DNA of 64,000 nt, taken from assembly GCF_900176425.1 (NCBI RefSeq), contig NZ_FWXS01000008.1:1-64000 (forward strand). The letters run 5' to 3'. Source of the stretch: Moheibacter sediminis. GTDB lineage: Bacteria; Bacteroidota; Bacteroidia; Flavobacteriales; Weeksellaceae. The position numbers were made by a program, and so were the translations under genes. The notes beneath the pieces were generated by a model. The model was not told the DNA's origin, ran no database searches, and was given only the letters and a program-made list of their open reading frames with translations. Positions 1 to 7,964 of this stretch are shown here, in pieces (the stretch's first letter is position 1; each line of letters starts with the position of its first letter).

Positions 1-1020
1 AAAATAATGGAAGAGAACCATTATTACCCATTCGGATTGAAGCACTCCACATACGCCGACCCCAAACAAAAGTATGAGCTTGTAGACAATATGGAGAACA
101 CCGCAAGGCCTACTTATGTCCTGAAAACCGATTACCAGTATAAGTACAACGGAAAAGAATACCAGGATGAGTTGAATCTGAACCTTTATGATTATGGCGC
201 AAGGAATTATGATGCTGCTTTGGGAAGGTGGAATACAATGGATAAATTATCGGAATTATATTTTGATACTTCCGCGTATGCTTATGCCAAAAATACTCCT
301 ATACAAGCAATAGATCCAGATGGGAATTTAGTTATTTTTATTAATGGCAATCATTTTGGTGAGGGTTCTAAAGGATACAGGAGACCCCAAGATTCCAAGA
401 ATACTATATATGGGAATCCAAAGGATTACAATTTTAATGGAACGTCAGCTTATTGGGGAAGTTTTGATAATAAAGTACAATCTCATTTAAATGATAATAA
501 TGCTATATATAGAGATGGTTCTTTAGGAGGATGGGGAGGATCCGGAGCCAAAAGTAGGCATGATGGAGGTGAAAAGCAGGGGTATTTAGATGCTAAACAA
601 ATTATCAAAAATTTAGAAAGAGATAAAACAACAGGAGAAATTATTGAAACCATAAAAATAATAACTCATAGCATGGGTGGAACTTACGGAAAAGGATATG
701 TAAAAGGCCTATTGAAATACATTAAAGAAAAAGGGTATGAAAAAAGCGTAAGAATTACATTAGTGGCAGACTTTGATCCATTTCAAGCAGCTAGTTCATA
801 TACAAATGCGCATCCCGATATATTTACTCAACAATTTACTCATATAGGAGGATCATTCGGACTTGCAGATCAAGAGCAAGAGGGAGTAGATGAATATCAT
901 GAAAAAAAAGGAGAACACTCAATATCTACATTCTTTGATGATATTTCAAAATTAAAAGAAGGAACCTATAAGTGGAATGATAAAACAAACCAGTGGGATT
1001 GTACAGATTGTAAAAAATAA
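1..1020 (+). CDS. RHS-repeat protein, C-terminal end with lipase-like toxin tail (5' partial)
   Basis: The reading frame is open from base 1, so this is the 3' part of a longer gene; the ATG at 7 is internal. The first ~100 codons are the conserved end of an RHS/YD core: YYPFGLKH, then YNGKEYQDELNLNLYDYGAR and DGN around codon 108. RHS cores encapsulate a variable C-terminal toxin. The unique tail here contains THSMGG (Ser codon 670-672), which resembles the GxSxG nucleophile elbow of alpha/beta hydrolases with Gly replaced by Thr; Asp at 769-771 and His at 916-918 are possible partners. I infer a lipase- or esterase-type effector acting on membranes. The next gene encodes a small membrane protein that fits an immunity role. 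The RHS call is strong; the tail activity is inferred from motif only. Confidence 0.85.
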   Translation, partial: KIMEENHYYPFGLKHSTYADPKQKYELVDNMENTARPTYVLKTDYQYKYNGKEYQDELNLNLYDYGARNYDAALGRWNTMDKLSELYFDTSAYAYAKNTPIQAIDPDGNLVIFINGNHFGEGSKGYRRPQDSKNTIYGNPKDYNFNGTSAYWGSFDNKVQSHLNDNNAIYRDGSLGGWGGSGAKSRHDGGEKQGYLDAKQIIKNLERDKTTGEIIETIKIITHSMGGTYGKGYVKGLLKYIKEKGYEKSVRITLVADFDPFQAASSYTNAHPDIFTQQFTHIGGSFGLADQEQEGVDEYHEKKGEHSISTFFDDISKLKEGTYKWNDKTNQWDCTDCKK

Positions 1021-1024
1021 AAAA

Positions 1025-1393
1025 ATGAATCAAAACCGTATCGTTGCAAAATATTATGCATTGCACCTTTCATATTTTCCTTTGAGTATCGTTTACTCAT
1101 TATTTGCCACAAATGAAGATAAAAATACTATTTTCCTCTTTCTTTTTTTGGTTTTATTAGTCTCTGTAACTCTATACATTTACAATTTTGTTATAACTGT
1201 TATAAGTAATATAATATTCAAAGGAACACCTTTTGTTTCTTTCATATTGCCAGTTATAATACTTATTCCTTTGAAATTTTTATTTGATAATTTAGACTTT
1301 GGAGGAAAATATGGTTTTATTATATTATTGGTAGGAAACTTATTTGTAAATGTATTTACTTGGAAATCAATTATTAATTTGAAAAAGAAATAA
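1025..1393 (+). CDS. Small multi-pass membrane protein, candidate immunity protein
   Basis: A 122-residue protein beginning at the ATG only 4 nt after the RHS stop codon; the frame also opens upstream at 977, but that would overlap the RHS gene and adds no conserved residues. Hydrophobic stretches at about residues 12-26, 33-58, 68-86 and 94-112 predict three or four membrane spans, and the C-terminus is basic (KKK). I recognise no family. Position directly after a polymorphic-toxin gene, small size and co-transcription suggest it protects the producer from the RHS tail; a membrane location would suit a lipase-type toxin. A terminator follows about 120 bp downstream. The coding call is fairly secure, the immunity role is inference. 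Confidence 0.7.
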   Translation: MNQNRIVAKYYALHLSYFPLSIVYSLFATNEDKNTIFLFLFLVLLVSVTLYIYNFVITVISNIIFKGTPFVSFILPVIILIPLKFLFDNLDFGGKYGFIILLVGNLFVNVFTWKSIINLKKK

Positions 1394-1510
1394 AAAAATG
1401 AAGATAGTTATTTATATCTACGTTCGGCGATGTATCAGAGTTAGTGATGAAATAAATAATTATTTTAAATCACTGAAAATCAGAAAATAATTTTCATAAT
1501 ATTTTAATTT

Positions 1511-1544
1511 AAGAGTGGACATAACGTCCACTCTTTCTATTTTT
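1511..1544 (+). terminator. Rho-independent terminator after RHS/immunity pair
   Basis: A perfect 10-bp stem (1511-1520 with 1526-1535, loop ATAAC) is followed by the T-rich tail TCTATTTTT. It closes the RHS/immunity transcription unit. Confidence 0.8.
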
Positions 1545-1568
1545 AGCATCTTAAACTGCCTGAAAAAC

Positions 1569-1883
1569 ATGAAAACTGAGACCAAGTGTTTCAAAGTTAG
1601 TGATACAAGAATCAGCCCTCATTGTAAAGAAAATCAAATTATAAAGAATGATAAATATAAATACCTTATAGATAAAAGTATTGATCAAACTACCCGTTTT
1701 GGAACCAATTCAGTCGAAAGAAAAAACTTAGATTTAAGAATTCACCTCAAAAGATTGAACTGCAGAGCGATTTGTTTTTCAAAGAGTGTTGTAGTCCTGA
1801 GCGCTGTGTTAAAGATTTATTTTTGGAGTGGAAGAAACCCTAATCTCGATTTCGACTATTTTAAAGTTGGTTGTTTGATCTGA
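1569..1883 (+). pseudogene. IS1-family transposase C-terminal remnant
   Basis: Translation from the ATG at 1569 contains NSVERKNLDLRIHLKRL followed by CRAICFSKS and KIYFW. This matches the C-terminal block of IS1-type (InsB) transposases, where the Glu of the ERxNLxxR segment is the third residue of the DDE site and the RTICFSKS-like sequence follows. The N-terminal zinc-ribbon/HTH part and the two catalytic Asp blocks are missing, because only ~105 codons are open and the region before 1569 is the terminator hairpin. It is therefore a decayed insertion-sequence fragment beside the RHS locus, not an active transposase. Family assignment rests on recalled motif similarity. I could not find inverted repeats or a target duplication by eye. 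Confidence 0.6.
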
Positions 1884-1888
1884 CAAAT

Positions 1889-2539
1889 CTAGATCTCCTT
1901 CAACCACTTCATCAAATCAAAATAATTTTGAGGAACCAATCCATGTCCGCTTCTGTATTCATGGTATTGATTTTTGATGTTTAAGTTATCTAAAAACGGT
2001 TTGCTTTTTTGTGCCCATTCGATTGGAATGACCATATCCTCGATACCATGTGAGATGAAGAAATTTAATTTCGAATAATCTTTTTCAGGATTGATTTCTC
2101 CGATGAAATCCATTTCGGGATAGCCACTCAGGCAAGCAATGTTTTTTACTTTTTCGGGATAATTCATCGCAATCGAATAGCTCAAAATCGCTCCCTGACT
2201 GAATCCAAAAACCGTTACATTTTCTTTGTCTAAATTTTCTTTTGAAGTAATCTCATCTATGAATTCAACCAATTTATTTCTTGATTCGATGGCTTGAGGA
2301 ACATTGTTGAATTTCTGCATATTGACAAAATCAATTTCATACCACGCATACATTCCCAGGCTCAAAGTATGAATTCCCTGCACGCTTATCACATGAAATT
2401 CATCGGGAATATCATCCGCAAAACTGAATAAATCCTGCTCGTTACTTCCGTAACCGTGAATTAGTAGGAGTAGAGGATTTTTGTCTAAAGCTTTTTTTGG
2501 TTTTCTTTCCAGATAATTGATTCCGTTTAATTCTTTCAT
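1889..2539 (-). CDS. Serine esterase of the alpha/beta hydrolase (phospholipase/carboxylesterase) family
   Basis: A 216-residue cytoplasmic hydrolase. It has the oxyanion segment LLIHGYGSNE (residues 25-34), the nucleophile elbow GFSQG with Ser114, Asp168 in HGIEDMVIP and His199 in RSGHGL, the complete catalytic triad in the usual order. Length and motif spacing match the YpfH/carboxylesterase-like group, which hydrolyses short acyl esters or thioesters. There is no signal peptide. It starts only 3 bp after the stop of the upstream ABC exporter gene and is surely co-transcribed with it. The natural substrate cannot be told from sequence. Confidence 0.9.
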   Translation of the reverse strand: MKELNGINYLERKPKKALDKNPLLLLIHGYGSNEQDLFSFADDIPDEFHVISVQGIHTLSLGMYAWYEIDFVNMQKFNNVPQAIESRNKLVEFIDEITSKENLDKENVTVFGFSQGAILSYSIAMNYPEKVKNIACLSGYPEMDFIGEINPEKDYSKLNFFISHGIEDMVIPIEWAQKSKPFLDNLNIKNQYHEYRSGHGLVPQNYFDLMKWLKEI

Positions 2540-2542
2540 GTA

Positions 2543-4339
2543 TTAAAAATTTTCTTCTTCGTCTTCTAAAGTTTTCGCGATTTTATCAATGTTTAAACTT
2601 CTCGCCATCGCATCGAAAATGTTTTTATAGATTCCGTTCTGCTCATAGATTTCTTCGTGTGCGCCAGATTCCATCACTTTTCCTTGTTCCATCGCATAAA
2701 TTTTATCCGAATCTATAATCTGTGAAATGCTGTGCGAAATTATGATAACTGTGCGGTTTTTCTTAATAGCATCTAAACTATTTTTTATTTGCTCCGTTGC
2801 AATTGCATCAAGACTTGCAGTTGGTTCGTCCAGGAAAATAATCGGAGGATTTTTCAAAAACATTCTGGCAATGGCAATTCGCTGTTGCTGACCGCCTGAA
2901 AGAAGCAAAGCATTACTGTCGAATTTGTCATGCAAATCCATTACTTGGTCGTAGATGTATGCTTGTTTCGCAGCTTCATGAACTTCATTTTCAGAAGCAC
3001 TTGGATTTCCATAACGGATGTTTTCTTCAATAGTTCCGCTGAAAATGTGGTTTTTCTGTAAAACCAAACCGATATTATTTCGGAGGAAATCTGTGTCGTA
3101 TTCTTTTAAATTAATTCCATCAAGGAAAATTTCGCCCGAAGAAGGTTCATAAAATTTATCGAGTAAATTGATTACAGTACTTTTTCCCGCGCCGCTAAGC
3201 CCCACCAACGCTGTGATTTTATTAGGAAGAATTTCCATATCGACGTTGAAAAGTGCCTGTGTTCCGTTTGGATAAATGAAATCAACATTCTTCAATTCAA
3301 ATTTTCCTGTAATTTTTTCCGGTTTGTAAGTTCCTGAATTCTCAATTTCATTTTCTGCATGTAAAATTTCAAAGAAACTTTCCGAATAAATCATCGCATC
3401 ATTCATTTCGTCAAAAATCCTGTGCAATTGCCCAATTGGCGCAGTTACATTGCTGAAAAGTAAGATGTGAAACATAATCATGCCGATGCTCATTTTCCCA
3501 TCCAAAACCAAATATGCCGTGAGAATGATAATAATCACGACACCGATTTGCTCTACAAAAGTTTTAATTCCATTGAAAACAAAACTGGTTTTTTGGGTTT
3601 TTAATTGGTTTTCAGTTAAATCAATTTGGATTTGATTTTGTTTTTCAGATTCAATTTTTTCCCGGTTAAATGATTTGATTACCGTGATGGATTGGATAAT
3701 ATTGACGATTCCCTGGCTTTTACTTTCCCGGAATTGACGCATGTTTCTGCGCCATCCGCTCAATGTTTTGGCTTGTTTAATGGTGATGAAAATGTAAACC
3801 GGAACAATCATCAAACCTACCAATCCAACCCAAAAATTGGCATTGAACATCAAAATCAATGCAATAAATGAATTGGCAAAAAGTGGTAAAATATTGATGA
3901 AGAAATTCTGAACTAAACGCGTTAAACTTTCAATTCCGCGATCGATTCGGGTTTGTAGTTTTCCCGATTCGTTGTCATTGGCAGTATAAAATGCCATGCG
4001 GTAAGTAAGTATTTTATCAACGATTGCTTGTGCCAAATCGCGTGAAACATAAATTCTCAGTTTTTCTCCATAAAATTTTTGTCCGAAAGTGATGACAACG
4101 TTGACAACTTCTTTGACCAAAAGAATTAAGGTGATGGTCACAAGAAGATTTAGTCCTGAATTTAAACCTTTGCCCGATTCTACCAATTTATTCACTTCAT
4201 CAACAGTATATTGAAGTGTCAAAGCATTTACTTGTGCGGTAAATGAGCCAATCAATGTCAGAAATAATGCAGCGAAAACTAGCCATTTGTATGGTTTTAC
4301 ATAAGGCCAAAGATTTTTGAATAAGGTCAGGAGTGTCAT
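2543..4339 (-). CDS. ABC exporter, fused permease and ATPase (MsbA/ABCB-like half transporter)
   Basis: A 598-residue half-transporter with six membrane segments in residues ~15-300 and a C-terminal nucleotide-binding domain: Walker A GLSGAGKST (380-388), signature LSGGQQQR (480-487), Walker B IIFLDE (500-505) and H-loop ISHS (His536). Such proteins work as dimers in the inner membrane exporting lipids, peptides or drugs; the cargo is unknown. A TTG three codons upstream would extend the frame, but the ATG at 4339 is preferred because a TAAATTTG -7 box lies at 4346-4353, overlapping that TTG. It forms an operon with the downstream esterase. Confidence 0.92.
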   Translation of the reverse strand: MTLLTLFKNLWPYVKPYKWLVFAALFLTLIGSFTAQVNALTLQYTVDEVNKLVESGKGLNSGLNLLVTITLILLVKEVVNVVITFGQKFYGEKLRIYVSRDLAQAIVDKILTYRMAFYTANDNESGKLQTRIDRGIESLTRLVQNFFINILPLFANSFIALILMFNANFWVGLVGLMIVPVYIFITIKQAKTLSGWRRNMRQFRESKSQGIVNIIQSITVIKSFNREKIESEKQNQIQIDLTENQLKTQKTSFVFNGIKTFVEQIGVVIIIILTAYLVLDGKMSIGMIMFHILLFSNVTAPIGQLHRIFDEMNDAMIYSESFFEILHAENEIENSGTYKPEKITGKFELKNVDFIYPNGTQALFNVDMEILPNKITALVGLSGAGKSTVINLLDKFYEPSSGEIFLDGINLKEYDTDFLRNNIGLVLQKNHIFSGTIEENIRYGNPSASENEVHEAAKQAYIYDQVMDLHDKFDSNALLLSGGQQQRIAIARMFLKNPPIIFLDEPTASLDAIATEQIKNSLDAIKKNRTVIIISHSISQIIDSDKIYAMEQGKVMESGAHEEIYEQNGIYKNIFDAMARSLNIDKIAKTLEDEEENF

Positions 4340-4345
4340 ACAAAT

Positions 4346-4353
4346 CAAATTTA
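4346..4353 (-). promoter_or_regulatory. Bacteroidota -7 box for ABC exporter
   Basis: Minus-strand TAAATTTG matches TAnnTTTG and ends 6 nt before the ATG at 4339, so transcription would begin at or next to the start codon. No good -33 TTTG was seen at the usual distance. Confidence 0.5.
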
Positions 4354-4394
4354 GTAAAGATTCGTATGCGGAATAATTATTTCTGTTAAATAAA

Positions 4395-4431
4395 AAAAGG
4401 GAATGATTGATTTCTCAATTCATTCCCTTTT
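4395..4431 (-). terminator. Terminator after secreted surface protein gene
   Basis: A 12-bp stem (4395-4406 with 4420-4431, AAAAGGGAATGA and its complement), with further pairing towards the loop, lies between the stop of the 4459-5241 gene and the exporter promoter. The minus-strand copy ends in a T-run. Confidence 0.75.
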
Positions 4432-4458
4432 CACAGGTTTGGTTTCGATTGTGTATTG

Positions 4459-5241
4459 TTATTGTGGAGAACCAGCGATTTTTCTAATGTGAAAAGATGC
4501 AATGCTGCTGGTTAATAAACTTAAAGTAATTACAGAAGAATTTGTCATTCCAAAAGTCAATTGATCATCTTGTTGCAAGGAATAAACGAAATTCATTTTT
4601 GTGTCGGTGATTGTTATGTTTAACAGAGCGCCCAATCCACTAAAAGATTTACTATCTAATAATATACTGCTTCCACCGCGAGTACGAACAATTCCAATTC
4701 CGGGGTTTCCAGTTAGAAGCGAGGCTTGTAACCCTGTTCCCATTTTAAAATCAAAGTCTATTTCATAAACTCCACTCGATGGAACAGTATAAGCATGAGT
4801 AGTATCTGAAAACAAAGCTTGATTTCCAATTGTTCGATTTGCATTTGTAAAATCAATAGGACGAAACCCTGCAACCAATAAACCTATGCTCAGCAGTGTG
4901 AAACCACTTGTCTTTTTAGCGGCATAAATGGATGTATTAGGCCTGTTTAAATCATAAGTTCCTAGACCATTGCTAAGATTTTGTAAACTTACTTCCTTTA
5001 CAATATTTTGATCATTTAAGTCTGCGATCAAAACAATCTCATTTCCTGTCAGTTGTGTAACCGCTTCACTATGTATATATTCAAGTTTTAGAGGTTGCTG
5101 AAGGGTTGTTTCGCCTTGTACCAATACAGTTCCTGCTACATCAAGCATGGCTTGTGGTGTCTCTGTTCCTATTCCTACTTGTGCATAATTTAAATTTGCT
5201 CCTAAGAGAACTACTATTAAAGAAGTGATTAATTTAGTCAT
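4459..5241 (-). CDS. Secreted flavobacterial surface protein with C1q-like C-terminus
   Basis: A 260-residue protein with a signal peptide (MTKLITSLIVVLLGANLNYAQ), directly followed by VGIGTETPQAMLDVAG. That motif is the hallmark of a large group of flavobacterial cell-surface or tail-fibre-like proteins and starts a beta-structured stalk. Residues ~140-255 (YEIDFDFKMGTG onward, Ser/Thr/Leu-rich beta strands) resemble a C1q/TNF-like jelly roll; this part is my structural inference. The ATG at 5241 is preferred to the TTG at 5262 because it gives a compact signal peptide. No enzyme motif was seen. It is flanked by its own terminator and looks monocistronic. Confidence 0.8.
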   Translation of the reverse strand: MTKLITSLIVVLLGANLNYAQVGIGTETPQAMLDVAGTVLVQGETTLQQPLKLEYIHSEAVTQLTGNEIVLIADLNDQNIVKEVSLQNLSNGLGTYDLNRPNTSIYAAKKTSGFTLLSIGLLVAGFRPIDFTNANRTIGNQALFSDTTHAYTVPSSGVYEIDFDFKMGTGLQASLLTGNPGIGIVRTRGGSSILLDSKSFSGLGALLNITITDTKMNFVYSLQQDDQLTFGMTNSSVITLSLLTSSIASFHIRKIAGSPQ

Positions 5242-5493: not shown

Positions 5494-6279
5494 TTATTTA
5501 ACAGGAGAAACCCTGTTAAAATTTTCGAAGACGCCCAGTCCGAACAAAGCGAAGTCATATTTTACCGGGTCTTCTGCATCAAACTCTTTTAATTTTAAAT
5601 TAAGTTCAGATACAGCTTTCCAATCATTTTGTGTACGAGTAAGAATTTTTAAGCTGCGAGCCACATTTCCGGAATGTATGTCTAACGGACAAACTAATTG
5701 TGAAGAGGAGATATTTTTCCAGATTCCAAAATCAACGCCTTGGTTGTCCTGGCGGACCACCCAGCGGAGGAACATGTTCAATCTTTTCGCCGCAGAATTA
5801 TTAGCCGGACTAGACAAATGTTTTTCTGAACGTTTTTCGTGCGAAATTTCCAAAAACAATTCCCTAAATCTTTCTATTGCATGAAAACTATCCGTTTCAT
5901 CTTTTTTAAAATGAAATGAATTTTCTAATCCGCGATGATTTTTATAAATGTTTTGAAGCGATTTTAAATAGAAGCTTAAATCTGTAGAATTGATGGTTCT
6001 GTGTTTGAATGTTTCGATTTTATCAAATTGATTTTCAGAATAATTCATTACAAAATCAAAGGGGGAATTTCCCATGCGGTTCATCAAATCCGTCGCTTTG
6101 TTGATGATCATTTTCCGGTTTCCCCAAGCCATCGTCGCCGCAAAAAATGCTGCAATTTCTATGTCTTCTTTAATCGAAAATCGATGCGGAATCTGTATCG
6201 GATCAGATTCTATGAAATTAGGATGATTGTATTGTATGACTTTTTCGTCCAGAAATTCTTTTAATTCATTTGAATTCAT
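5494..6279 (-). CDS. TIGR02757 (DUF2400) family protein
   Basis: A 261-residue cytoplasmic protein typical in length and sequence for TIGR02757: N-terminal DEKVxxYNxPxFIExDPIxIPH, then the highly conserved FFAATMAWGNRKMIINK segment, WVVRQDxxGVDFGIW in the middle and the C-terminal KYDFALFGLGVFE. The family is widespread in Bacteroidota and also occurs in spirochaetes; it has no proven function, although its helical fold recalls HhH-type DNA glycosylases. The start overlaps the stop of the upstream membrane-protein gene by 4 nt, showing translational coupling. It is the last gene of a three-gene operon that begins with the LolD-like ATPase. Confidence 0.9.
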   Translation of the reverse strand: MNSNELKEFLDEKVIQYNHPNFIESDPIQIPHRFSIKEDIEIAAFFAATMAWGNRKMIINKATDLMNRMGNSPFDFVMNYSENQFDKIETFKHRTINSTDLSFYLKSLQNIYKNHRGLENSFHFKKDETDSFHAIERFRELFLEISHEKRSEKHLSSPANNSAAKRLNMFLRWVVRQDNQGVDFGIWKNISSSQLVCPLDIHSGNVARSLKILTRTQNDWKAVSELNLKLKEFDAEDPVKYDFALFGLGVFENFNRVSPVK

Positions 6280-7964
6280 TCGGTTATGTTTTCACTGTAA
6301 AATCCGTCTTTCAAATTCGAAGTGCGAAGCTGTGGCCGGACCTTGCATTTTTTTCTAATTAAAATGATATGTTTTTCATTGAGACTTGGCAGCTCTCCAT
6401 CAAAACTTCCCCAAGTAAAATCGTTAATTTCTTTTGGCGTATTGTATTTGAGGTTTCCCTCTTTTATTATTTTGAATTCCAGTTTGTAGCGGGAGTTTTC
6501 ATGAGGAATTATGATTTGTTTTGCTTCAAATGAATTAAATGGCTGAGGCTGGGAATTTACTTTTATAATTTTAAAATTGAGAAACAAACTTACAAAGGCA
6601 ATCAATATACTCATCATTATGAAACCTTGAACAAGATTTGAGTTTTTTAATGAAATAATCGCAAATGAAATTAAACTCAGCGCTATCATAAAATGAAAGA
6701 AAAAGCGATACTGAGGAGAAGTCAAAAATAACATGATAAGATTGATGACTGCGATTCCCCAAATCAACCAAAATGATTTTTCTTTTTTTGCGATGAATGG
6801 AAATAAAATCAAGATGATTAAAAACAAATTATTGAAAATTAACTCTAAGCCTTTATTTTCTATAGTCCACGCAATTAATTTGTCTTGGAAATTATGATGT
6901 TTCAATTCCCGCGGACTTATATGCTTCCATCCGGAATCATTGGTTATCTGTACATATAAAGATTGTAAACTTTCAGGAACTTGCCAGTCTGGAGTCAGAA
7001 ATTTTCCTAAAATATTAAAAGGATAGAGCGGATATCCTGTAATTATATAATTTTTAGTGATAAATAAAATCCCTGAAATAATGCCAATCGCTGCAACAAT
7101 TTTCCATTTTTCAGAAATAATTTTATGACGGAAAGCCAAAATCAAAGGAAATAATAAAATAATAGAAGAAGTTATTTTAATCAAAATCAACATGATGCAT
7201 AATACAAGTATCAAATTGAAATCGCCGCGATTTTTCTTATAATTCAAAATAAATAAAGAAAAAATCACCTGGCTTATCAAAAATACAGGCAGGTCAGGAG
7301 AAGGAGAAGTTACAAATTGGAAAAAGAAAAGATTTGCACAAAGAATCAAAGCTAAATAAAGATTTGTCAACTCTTTTTTCTTTAAATACAAATGAAAATG
7401 ATTCAAAGAAAAAAAACTGAATATCAGCATCAAAAAGCCATTCAGATCATTTAATCGATTGGAAATAAATCCAAAATTCAATCCGCTTTGAAGAATATGC
7501 CAACCTGACATTTGTCCAAAATAAATGTGCAGATTAGCCAAGCCTTTTACAAATCCATATTCATTTAGCCATTTGATGGTTTGGATATAATAAGATTCAT
7601 TGTCAACCAGATAAGGGATTCCTGCTGATTTTGCTAATACAGAAAATGAAATAATAAAAGCAGAAAATTTTATTGGAACAGACCAATTATTGAATTCTTC
7701 GATAGTTTTTTTTAAAATTTCCAAAGCAAATTGACGGTGCTGGTATAAAATAAGAATACTTACGAATGAATTGATTAAATAAAAAATGAAGTCTGTGGGC
7801 AGAAAAATTAAGGTGAAATGCAGAAACAACATTTCTAAAAACATTCCAGAAATCAATATGTAAAATAAATTCTGAGTTTTAATTCTAAATAATGCAACTC
7901 CTAAAGTTCCCATTGCTAAAAGGATAAAGAAGCTATAAATCCAGCTAAATAGAATTAATGCCAT
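6276..7964 (-). CDS. Polytopic membrane protein, LIC_10190-like (glycosyltransferase-like)
   Basis: A 562-residue protein with about 12-14 hydrophobic spans covering residues ~1-470, followed by a soluble C-terminal tail of about 90 residues. The second half of the first periplasmic loop contains LVDNESYYIQTIKWLNEYG, reminiscent of the acidic first loop of GT-C glycosyltransferases. It resembles the LIC_10190 family of membrane proteins found in Bacteroidota and spirochaetes, but I assign this only tentatively. It lies 6 bp after lolD and overlaps the TIGR02757 gene by 4 nt, so all three are one unit. A role in envelope glycoconjugates is plausible, not shown. Confidence 0.7.
   Translation of the reverse strand: MALILFSWIYSFFILLAMGTLGVALFRIKTQNLFYILISGMFLEMLFLHFTLIFLPTDFIFYLINSFVSILILYQHRQFALEILKKTIEEFNNWSVPIKFSAFIISFSVLAKSAGIPYLVDNESYYIQTIKWLNEYGFVKGLANLHIYFGQMSGWHILQSGLNFGFISNRLNDLNGFLMLIFSFFSLNHFHLYLKKKELTNLYLALILCANLFFFQFVTSPSPDLPVFLISQVIFSLFILNYKKNRGDFNLILVLCIMLILIKITSSIILLFPLILAFRHKIISEKWKIVAAIGIISGILFITKNYIITGYPLYPFNILGKFLTPDWQVPESLQSLYVQITNDSGWKHISPRELKHHNFQDKLIAWTIENKGLELIFNNLFLIILILFPFIAKKEKSFWLIWGIAVINLIMLFLTSPQYRFFFHFMIALSLISFAIISLKNSNLVQGFIMMSILIAFVSLFLNFKIIKVNSQPQPFNSFEAKQIIIPHENSRYKLEFKIIKEGNLKYNTPKEINDFTWGSFDGELPSLNEKHIILIRKKCKVRPQLRTSNLKDGFYSENITE

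Follow-up and report, generated by a model that had tools for sequence, protein, structure and literature searches.

What does the variable tail of an RHS gene in Moheibacter sediminis encode, and what is the role of the small membrane gene that directly follows it? The window analyzed here is a 64,000-nucleotide stretch starting at base 1 of contig NZ_FWXS01000008.1 (C8), from a genome of 3.2 Mb that is 99.5% complete and belongs to a bacterial family that is also home to Chryseobacterium. The original prediction, made from the window's letters, was that the tail bears a lipase-like nucleophile elbow and forms a toxin-immunity pair with its neighbor. The explanation we favor is a polymorphic-toxin cassette, in which the tail would be the C-terminal enzyme of the RHS protein, a serine α/β hydrolase targeting a competitor's cell envelope, most probably through phospholipase A-type cleavage of membrane lipids. 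The product of the downstream gene (1025-1393) would be a small integral membrane immunity protein, acting at the inner membrane to protect producing cells and their kin. We regard this reading as a whole, a phospholipase-type RHS envelope toxin with an inner-membrane immunity protein, as probable.

The RHS gene end and its partner gene

The open reading frame at 1-1020 (+) comprises 339 codons, has an open 5′ end and corresponds to the 3′-terminal part of an RHS gene. It lacks the N terminus because the window begins at the first base of the contig; the RHS protein is incomplete, with its N terminus absent from the contig, and the original prediction requires correction on this point. A profile search matched the RHS associated core TIGR03696 at residues 38-108 (E 5.1e-14, above the cut-off). 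The core portion (1-315, +) is cut by the contig start and ends in the AIDPDG motif, and the unique tail, the candidate toxin domain, spans residues 106-339 (316-1017, +; 234 aa). The arrangement has the features of an RHS polymorphic toxin, with a TIGR03696 core, then a variable C-terminal domain and, directly downstream across a 4 nt gap, a small immunity-like gene. The stop codon of the toxin frame occupies 1018-1020, and the partner gene extends from its ATG at 1025 to 1393 (+). Thus, the small membrane gene of the original prediction lies where it had been placed, and the other coordinates given with it are also correct.

The predicted immunity protein is a polytopic protein of 122 aa with three to four hydrophobic segments, three of them strongly hydrophobic. 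A longer in-frame ATG exists at 977, and the start at 1025 was preferred because the only relative detected, located behind a related tail at locus L048, begins with the same MN[QN]N motif. The AlphaFold model of the partner, based on two sequences only, is all helical and moderately confident (pLDDT 72, pTM 0.57). Downstream, a terminator-like hairpin (1511-1545, +), recognized as a consensus match only, has a 10-pair stem with five GC pairs and a T-rich tail, and it probably closes the two-gene unit. The 3′ flank at 1422-1780 (+) is common to two other RHS loci of the genome (C9:15543-15900 and C15:37447-37675; 93-94% identity), in both of which it follows an RHS core. This flank, including the hairpin, is a possible homology handle for tail exchange. 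A second α/β-hydrolase-like gene, with a GFSQG elbow of the carboxylesterase type as judged by eye, adjoins the locus at 1889-2539 (−), probably by coincidence. An Rfam search, a comparison of the tail with plasmids and a PADLOC search each returned no match.

Other contigs of the genome contain related pieces. Contig C7 starts with three RHS cassettes (1-4564), with core ends 80-83% identical to that of the window and with different tails. Lipoprotein-like ORFs come after two of them, at 2373-2789 for the second cassette and at 4103-4564 for the third. An N-terminal RHS part with a signal-peptide-like start, at 1-2520 (−) of contig C24, resembles the N-terminal region of complete relatives; it runs off the contig end and is possibly the origin of the missing N terminus. 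Given that the contig edge at the start of the window cuts through the RHS core, and that C7 opens with three more cassettes, the window tail may not be the one joined to a full-length gene. The cassette could then be a silent, unexpressed orphan in an RHS array with a frame that is merely preserved, which we consider unlikely, as the frame, the triad candidates and the partner are all intact and are accompanied by the terminator-like hairpin.

The tail family and its predicted fold

The tail is carried by about 60 Bacteroidota loci. Of 320 genomes from the window's bacterial family, 18 contain a related tail, and an alignment-based search retrieved 50 loci in other genomes, covering many Bacteroidota lineages by title, together with one Chlorobiota bin; a pattern search based on the window tail alone had retrieved none. 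At nearly all of the 50 loci, the homologous tail sits directly after an RHS core, which is more than chance. Homology extends to a second group, the THSRGG tails (L011-L023), with a profile comparison probability of 99.7% and an E-value of 2e-25.

Among 46 aligned tails, the elbow serine, the glycine two residues on, an upstream arginine and two further glycines are invariant, and N10-G11 at the first strand, Y46-W47, D60, H118, P155 and H201 are at least 90% conserved. The residue preceding HSxG is a threonine in nearly all tails, so an elbow with threonine is characteristic of the family, and the original view of this residue as unusual was rejected. Neither domain had been recognized in the original prediction, and this still holds for Pfam and NCBIfam: no model in either covers the tail, no match of the partner was obtained, and the tail matches no curated lipase or effector family of the T6SS Tle1-5 kind there. 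Among the relatives, weak matches were limited to PGAP1 (four members), Lipase_3 (two) and DUF676 (one), along with weak matches to lipases in the PDB. A match of the tail to Tubulin fell below the cut-off and was taken as a composition or short-motif artefact.

AlphaFold2 modeling of the tail with 30 aligned tails yielded a confident structure (pLDDT 87.8, pTM 0.87). The strands at residues 5-10, 62-67, 113-118, 147-153, 171-177 and 193-198, with helix 121-138 after S119 and helix 203-212 after H201, follow the element order of a minimal α/β hydrolase. The least confident stretch, around residues 11-40, corresponds to an insertion after the first strand (346-456, +; INGxH...YW; pLDDT 52-70) that is the most variable among homologues in both length and sequence, and it could serve as a lid. 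A Foldseek search against the PDB found thioesterases, lipases and PETase-like cutinases (best E 8.5e-5), and a structural aligner gave Z scores of 13.7 for TesA and 13.0 for Bacillus subtilis LipA (1i6w; 163 residues, 3.0 Å). With AlphaFold2, Foldseek and VIA in agreement, the tail is almost certainly an α/β hydrolase as modeled, and the structure prediction that had been proposed as a check on the lipase-like fold bears it out.

Within this model, the elbow, an acid and a histidine occur in the canonical order at strand ends, and a candidate triad of S119, D154 and H201 is predicted from conservation and strand placement. S119 (codon 670-672), in the elbow THSMGG (664-681, +) between strand 113-118 and helix 121-138, is the predicted nucleophile; it is invariant in the 46 tails, and the histidine before it is retained in at least 90% of them. 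H201 (916-918, +), in the EHSI motif on the loop between strand 193-198 and helix 203-212, does not vary in alignment A4 (30 members) and is conserved in at least 90% of A3. D154 (775-777, +), the second aspartate of ADFDP, lies just after strand 147-153 (β6) and is present in all 28 subfamily tails with a readable motif, including two with histidine at position 152. The downstream aspartate and histidine candidates of the original prediction are therefore both conserved, as is the elbow. Where position 154 is alanine, threonine or asparagine, 19 of 24 tails carry an aspartate in an S/H-xx-D-xx-A/S-G motif just after the next strand, where lipases usually have their acid, and this second motif is absent from that loop in tails with D154 (row L013 of the acid-motif table was read by eye). 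Apparent second motifs in five D154 tails were rejected, since the pattern there matches at a later position in the chain and not in this loop. On this sequence evidence, the acid would follow β6 in the window's branch and β7 in the other tails. A difference of this kind is known between pancreatic lipase and other α/β hydrolases.

Lipase or phospholipase chemistry is somewhat favored. The structural neighbors, however, include thioesterases, cutinases and carboxylesterases, and lipid is therefore not the only possible substrate.

Partner genes, co-inheritance and decay

At 53 loci with a readable neighbor (three were omitted, where the tail was broken, the next ORF was part of the tail or the neighbor was transposon-like), the start of the next same-strand ORF falls in an interval reaching from 25 nt upstream of the toxin frame's end to about 60 nt downstream of it. 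All 53 of these ORFs have an envelope signature, on hydropathy as a coarse predictor and with a few near-duplicates among the loci: 25 have at least three hydrophobic segments, 17 are lipoprotein-like and 11 have an N-terminal anchor or signal. For comparison, the genes behind 23 other RHS tails of the same bacterial family, picked by exact RHS core positions, included no polytopic protein, two with two segments, seven lipoprotein-like, six anchored and eight with no envelope sign. With kinship not corrected for, the difference is marked both for envelope-like partners (53/53 versus 15/23, Fisher 2.6e-5) and for polytopic ones (25/53 versus 0/23, Fisher 1.3e-5).

An envelope target is thus what the partners suggest, and we hold it to be likely. 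Since lipoprotein-like or anchored ORFs also follow 13 of the 23 unrelated tails, Sec export, not a lipid target, may account for part of the envelope location. The same pair might accordingly have a non-lipid envelope target, with the tail attacking, for example, bonds of the cell wall, of lipoprotein acyl groups or of surface polysaccharides in the manner of an esterase, amidase or peptidase. The similar Z scores of thioesterases (TesA, RedJ) and carboxylesterases fit such an enzyme, and envelope-like partners would suit any target in the envelope. On the other hand, the partner is often a membrane protein of three to four helices, far more often than after other RHS tails, which best fits action at the membrane, and small lipases are among the nearest solved folds. 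We consider a non-lipid target rather improbable, and a membrane lipid the better candidate substrate.

The partners themselves fall into unrelated groups, comprising one anchored family of 19, several polytopic groups and the pair formed by the window and L048. This grouping comes from an all-against-all comparison with composition correction; the uncorrected version merged nearly everything. No Pfam match was found for any of ten partners tested. The family of 19 is a putative immunity family of about 190-300 aa, anchored or lipoprotein-like (L024, L025, L028, L030, L033, L034, L037-L043, L049, L053, L056, L062, L063 and L066), and five scanned members (L024, L028, L034, L037 and L066) gave no Pfam match.

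The window's own partner is confined to the window's toxin lineage. The window tail and the L048 tail are sisters in a quick tree (SH-aLRT 92), and no homologue of either partner was detected apart from the other (33% identity, E 1e-13). When the phylum was searched with a profile built from the two partner sequences, the window was the only hit, and none came from any other of 395 Bacteroidota genomes. Candidate homologues with E-values of 1e-4 to 1e-2 from genomes of the same family were rejected, most of them having in-frame stops or short spans, and matches to an orthopoxvirus protein and to lipoprotein signal peptidase were below the cut-off and were regarded as composition or short-motif artefacts. 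Mapped on the tail tree, partner kind requires a minimum of 11 changes, as compared to a mean of 16 for shuffled labels, with one of 200 shuffles as low. Partner kind is thus partly inherited and often replaced.

One such replacement can be followed within the toxin domain. Between the tails of L025 (Chryseobacterium carnipullorum; 428-1191) and L026 (a Weeksellaceae bin; 6001-6729), the front two thirds share 95-100% DNA identity, the last third falls to 63-75%, and the partners are unrelated. The switch in identity inside the domain looks like recombination. The last third of the domain thus moves together with the partner gene, suggesting that the surface recognized by the partner is located there. 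At L047 (Chryseobacterium sp. SC28; 6001-6788), the C-terminal half of the toxin domain is missing and the partner is kept, 99.6% identical in DNA to that of L026; by its sequence, this locus appears to be a case of protection retained after loss of the weapon.

The synteny, the co-inheritance, the recombination and the degraded toxin with an intact partner all support the pairing put forward in the original prediction, and from these sequence patterns we consider a toxin-immunity pair highly probable. Alternatively, the tail could be a nutritional or housekeeping esterase displayed on the surface, with the membrane gene as an accessory rather than an antidote. Such a role would accord with the Sec signal peptides on complete relatives, in a group of RHS proteins, those of Bacteroidota, that has been little studied. 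However, cassette arrays and alternative tails behind nearly identical cores are a signature of antagonism, the toxin C terminus changes together with the partner gene, and partners turn over between unrelated families and are kept after toxin decay, making this alternative very unlikely.

Delivery and comparison with known systems

Complete relatives of the tail protein have a Sec-type signal peptide, as judged by eye, followed by DUF6443 (PF20041) and RHS repeats, which makes Sec the probable first step of export. TssC (PF17541) of the Bacteroidota T6SS was not found in the genome of the window by a search that detects it in 9 of 198 Bacteroidota genomes. The genome encodes 114 type IX (T9SS) cargo tails, and the RHS protein ends in the candidate toxin domain, not in a type IX tail. 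Taken further, the data might describe a Bacteroidota-wide family of RHS lipase toxins, in which the C-terminal third would set immunity specificity, protection would have switched repeatedly between polytopic and anchored periplasmic forms, the acid would have moved from β7 to β6, and toxins exported through Sec would be delivered without a T6SS; we propose this only tentatively.

If the toxin-immunity reading is correct, the tails would add an unnamed and widespread enzyme family to the RHS toxin arsenal of Bacteroidota, whose RHS proteins are poorly studied. Nearly identical toxins with unrelated antidotes would make it possible to study in a natural setting how immunity specificity becomes rewired and how a small membrane protein can neutralize a hydrolase. 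As the genome has no detectable T6SS sheath, delivery becomes a testable question.

Among solved structures, B. subtilis lipase A is a minimal α/β hydrolase that ranks with the nearest folds, and its elbow, AHSMGG, likewise lacks the first glycine. It is a secreted housekeeping lipase in which the acid follows strand β7, as opposed to the predicted position after β6 in the window tail.

Among toxins, the closest in kind are the Tox-ABhydrolase-1, -2 and -3 domains, lipase-like α/β hydrolase domains of polymorphic toxins, a class described in 2012 (Zhang et al. 2012, PMC3482391). The kind of toxin seen here is thus not new, and the original suggestion that the pair may be new stands in part: the tail family, its partners and the partner switching were not found in a literature search limited to open-licence texts, but the lipase-like class was already known. 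The immunity families linked to Tox-ABhydrolase-2 and -3 in a table of that source include SUKH, Imm66 and Imm69, whereas the partners here are polytopic membrane proteins or lipoproteins; the comparison of Tox-ABhydrolase-3 with the window tail is by description only (PMC3482391).

Several characterized systems combine a phospholipase toxin with envelope-located protection. TslA/TilA of Staphylococcus pairs a T7SS phospholipase A toxin with a Ser-Asp-His triad, active outside the cytoplasm, with an envelope lipoprotein antidote, and many relatives of the window have lipoprotein-like partners (PMC10730906). TslA differs in its N-terminal toxin domain, its T7SS export, its GXSXG elbow and the lack of RHS, and the window's partner is polytopic (PMC10730906). 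The TslA type, with an N-terminal lipase and a C-terminal helical targeting domain, does not describe the window protein, which is an RHS protein ending in the hydrolase. Phospholipase toxins of the Tle class are likewise used against bacteria, and in the T6SS pair Tle3/Tli3 the immunity protein Tli3 is an outer-membrane lipoprotein (PMC9860674). Those toxins are delivered by the T6SS, while the window's genome has no detectable TssC and the window tail no Pfam or NCBIfam match. For membrane partners, Tox-Act1/Imm-Act1 joins a phospholipase toxin to a two-helix membrane protein (PMC12994826), and in ExiCD polytopic antidotes are known against a membrane-depolarizing toxin (PMC12744356). The TANFOR toxins, finally, share with the present family their occurrence in Bacteroidota, a Sec signal peptide, exchangeable C-terminal toxins and a downstream immunity gene, and they differ in their N-terminal TANFOR domain, in place of which the complete relatives of the window tail have DUF6443 and RHS (PMC7073777).
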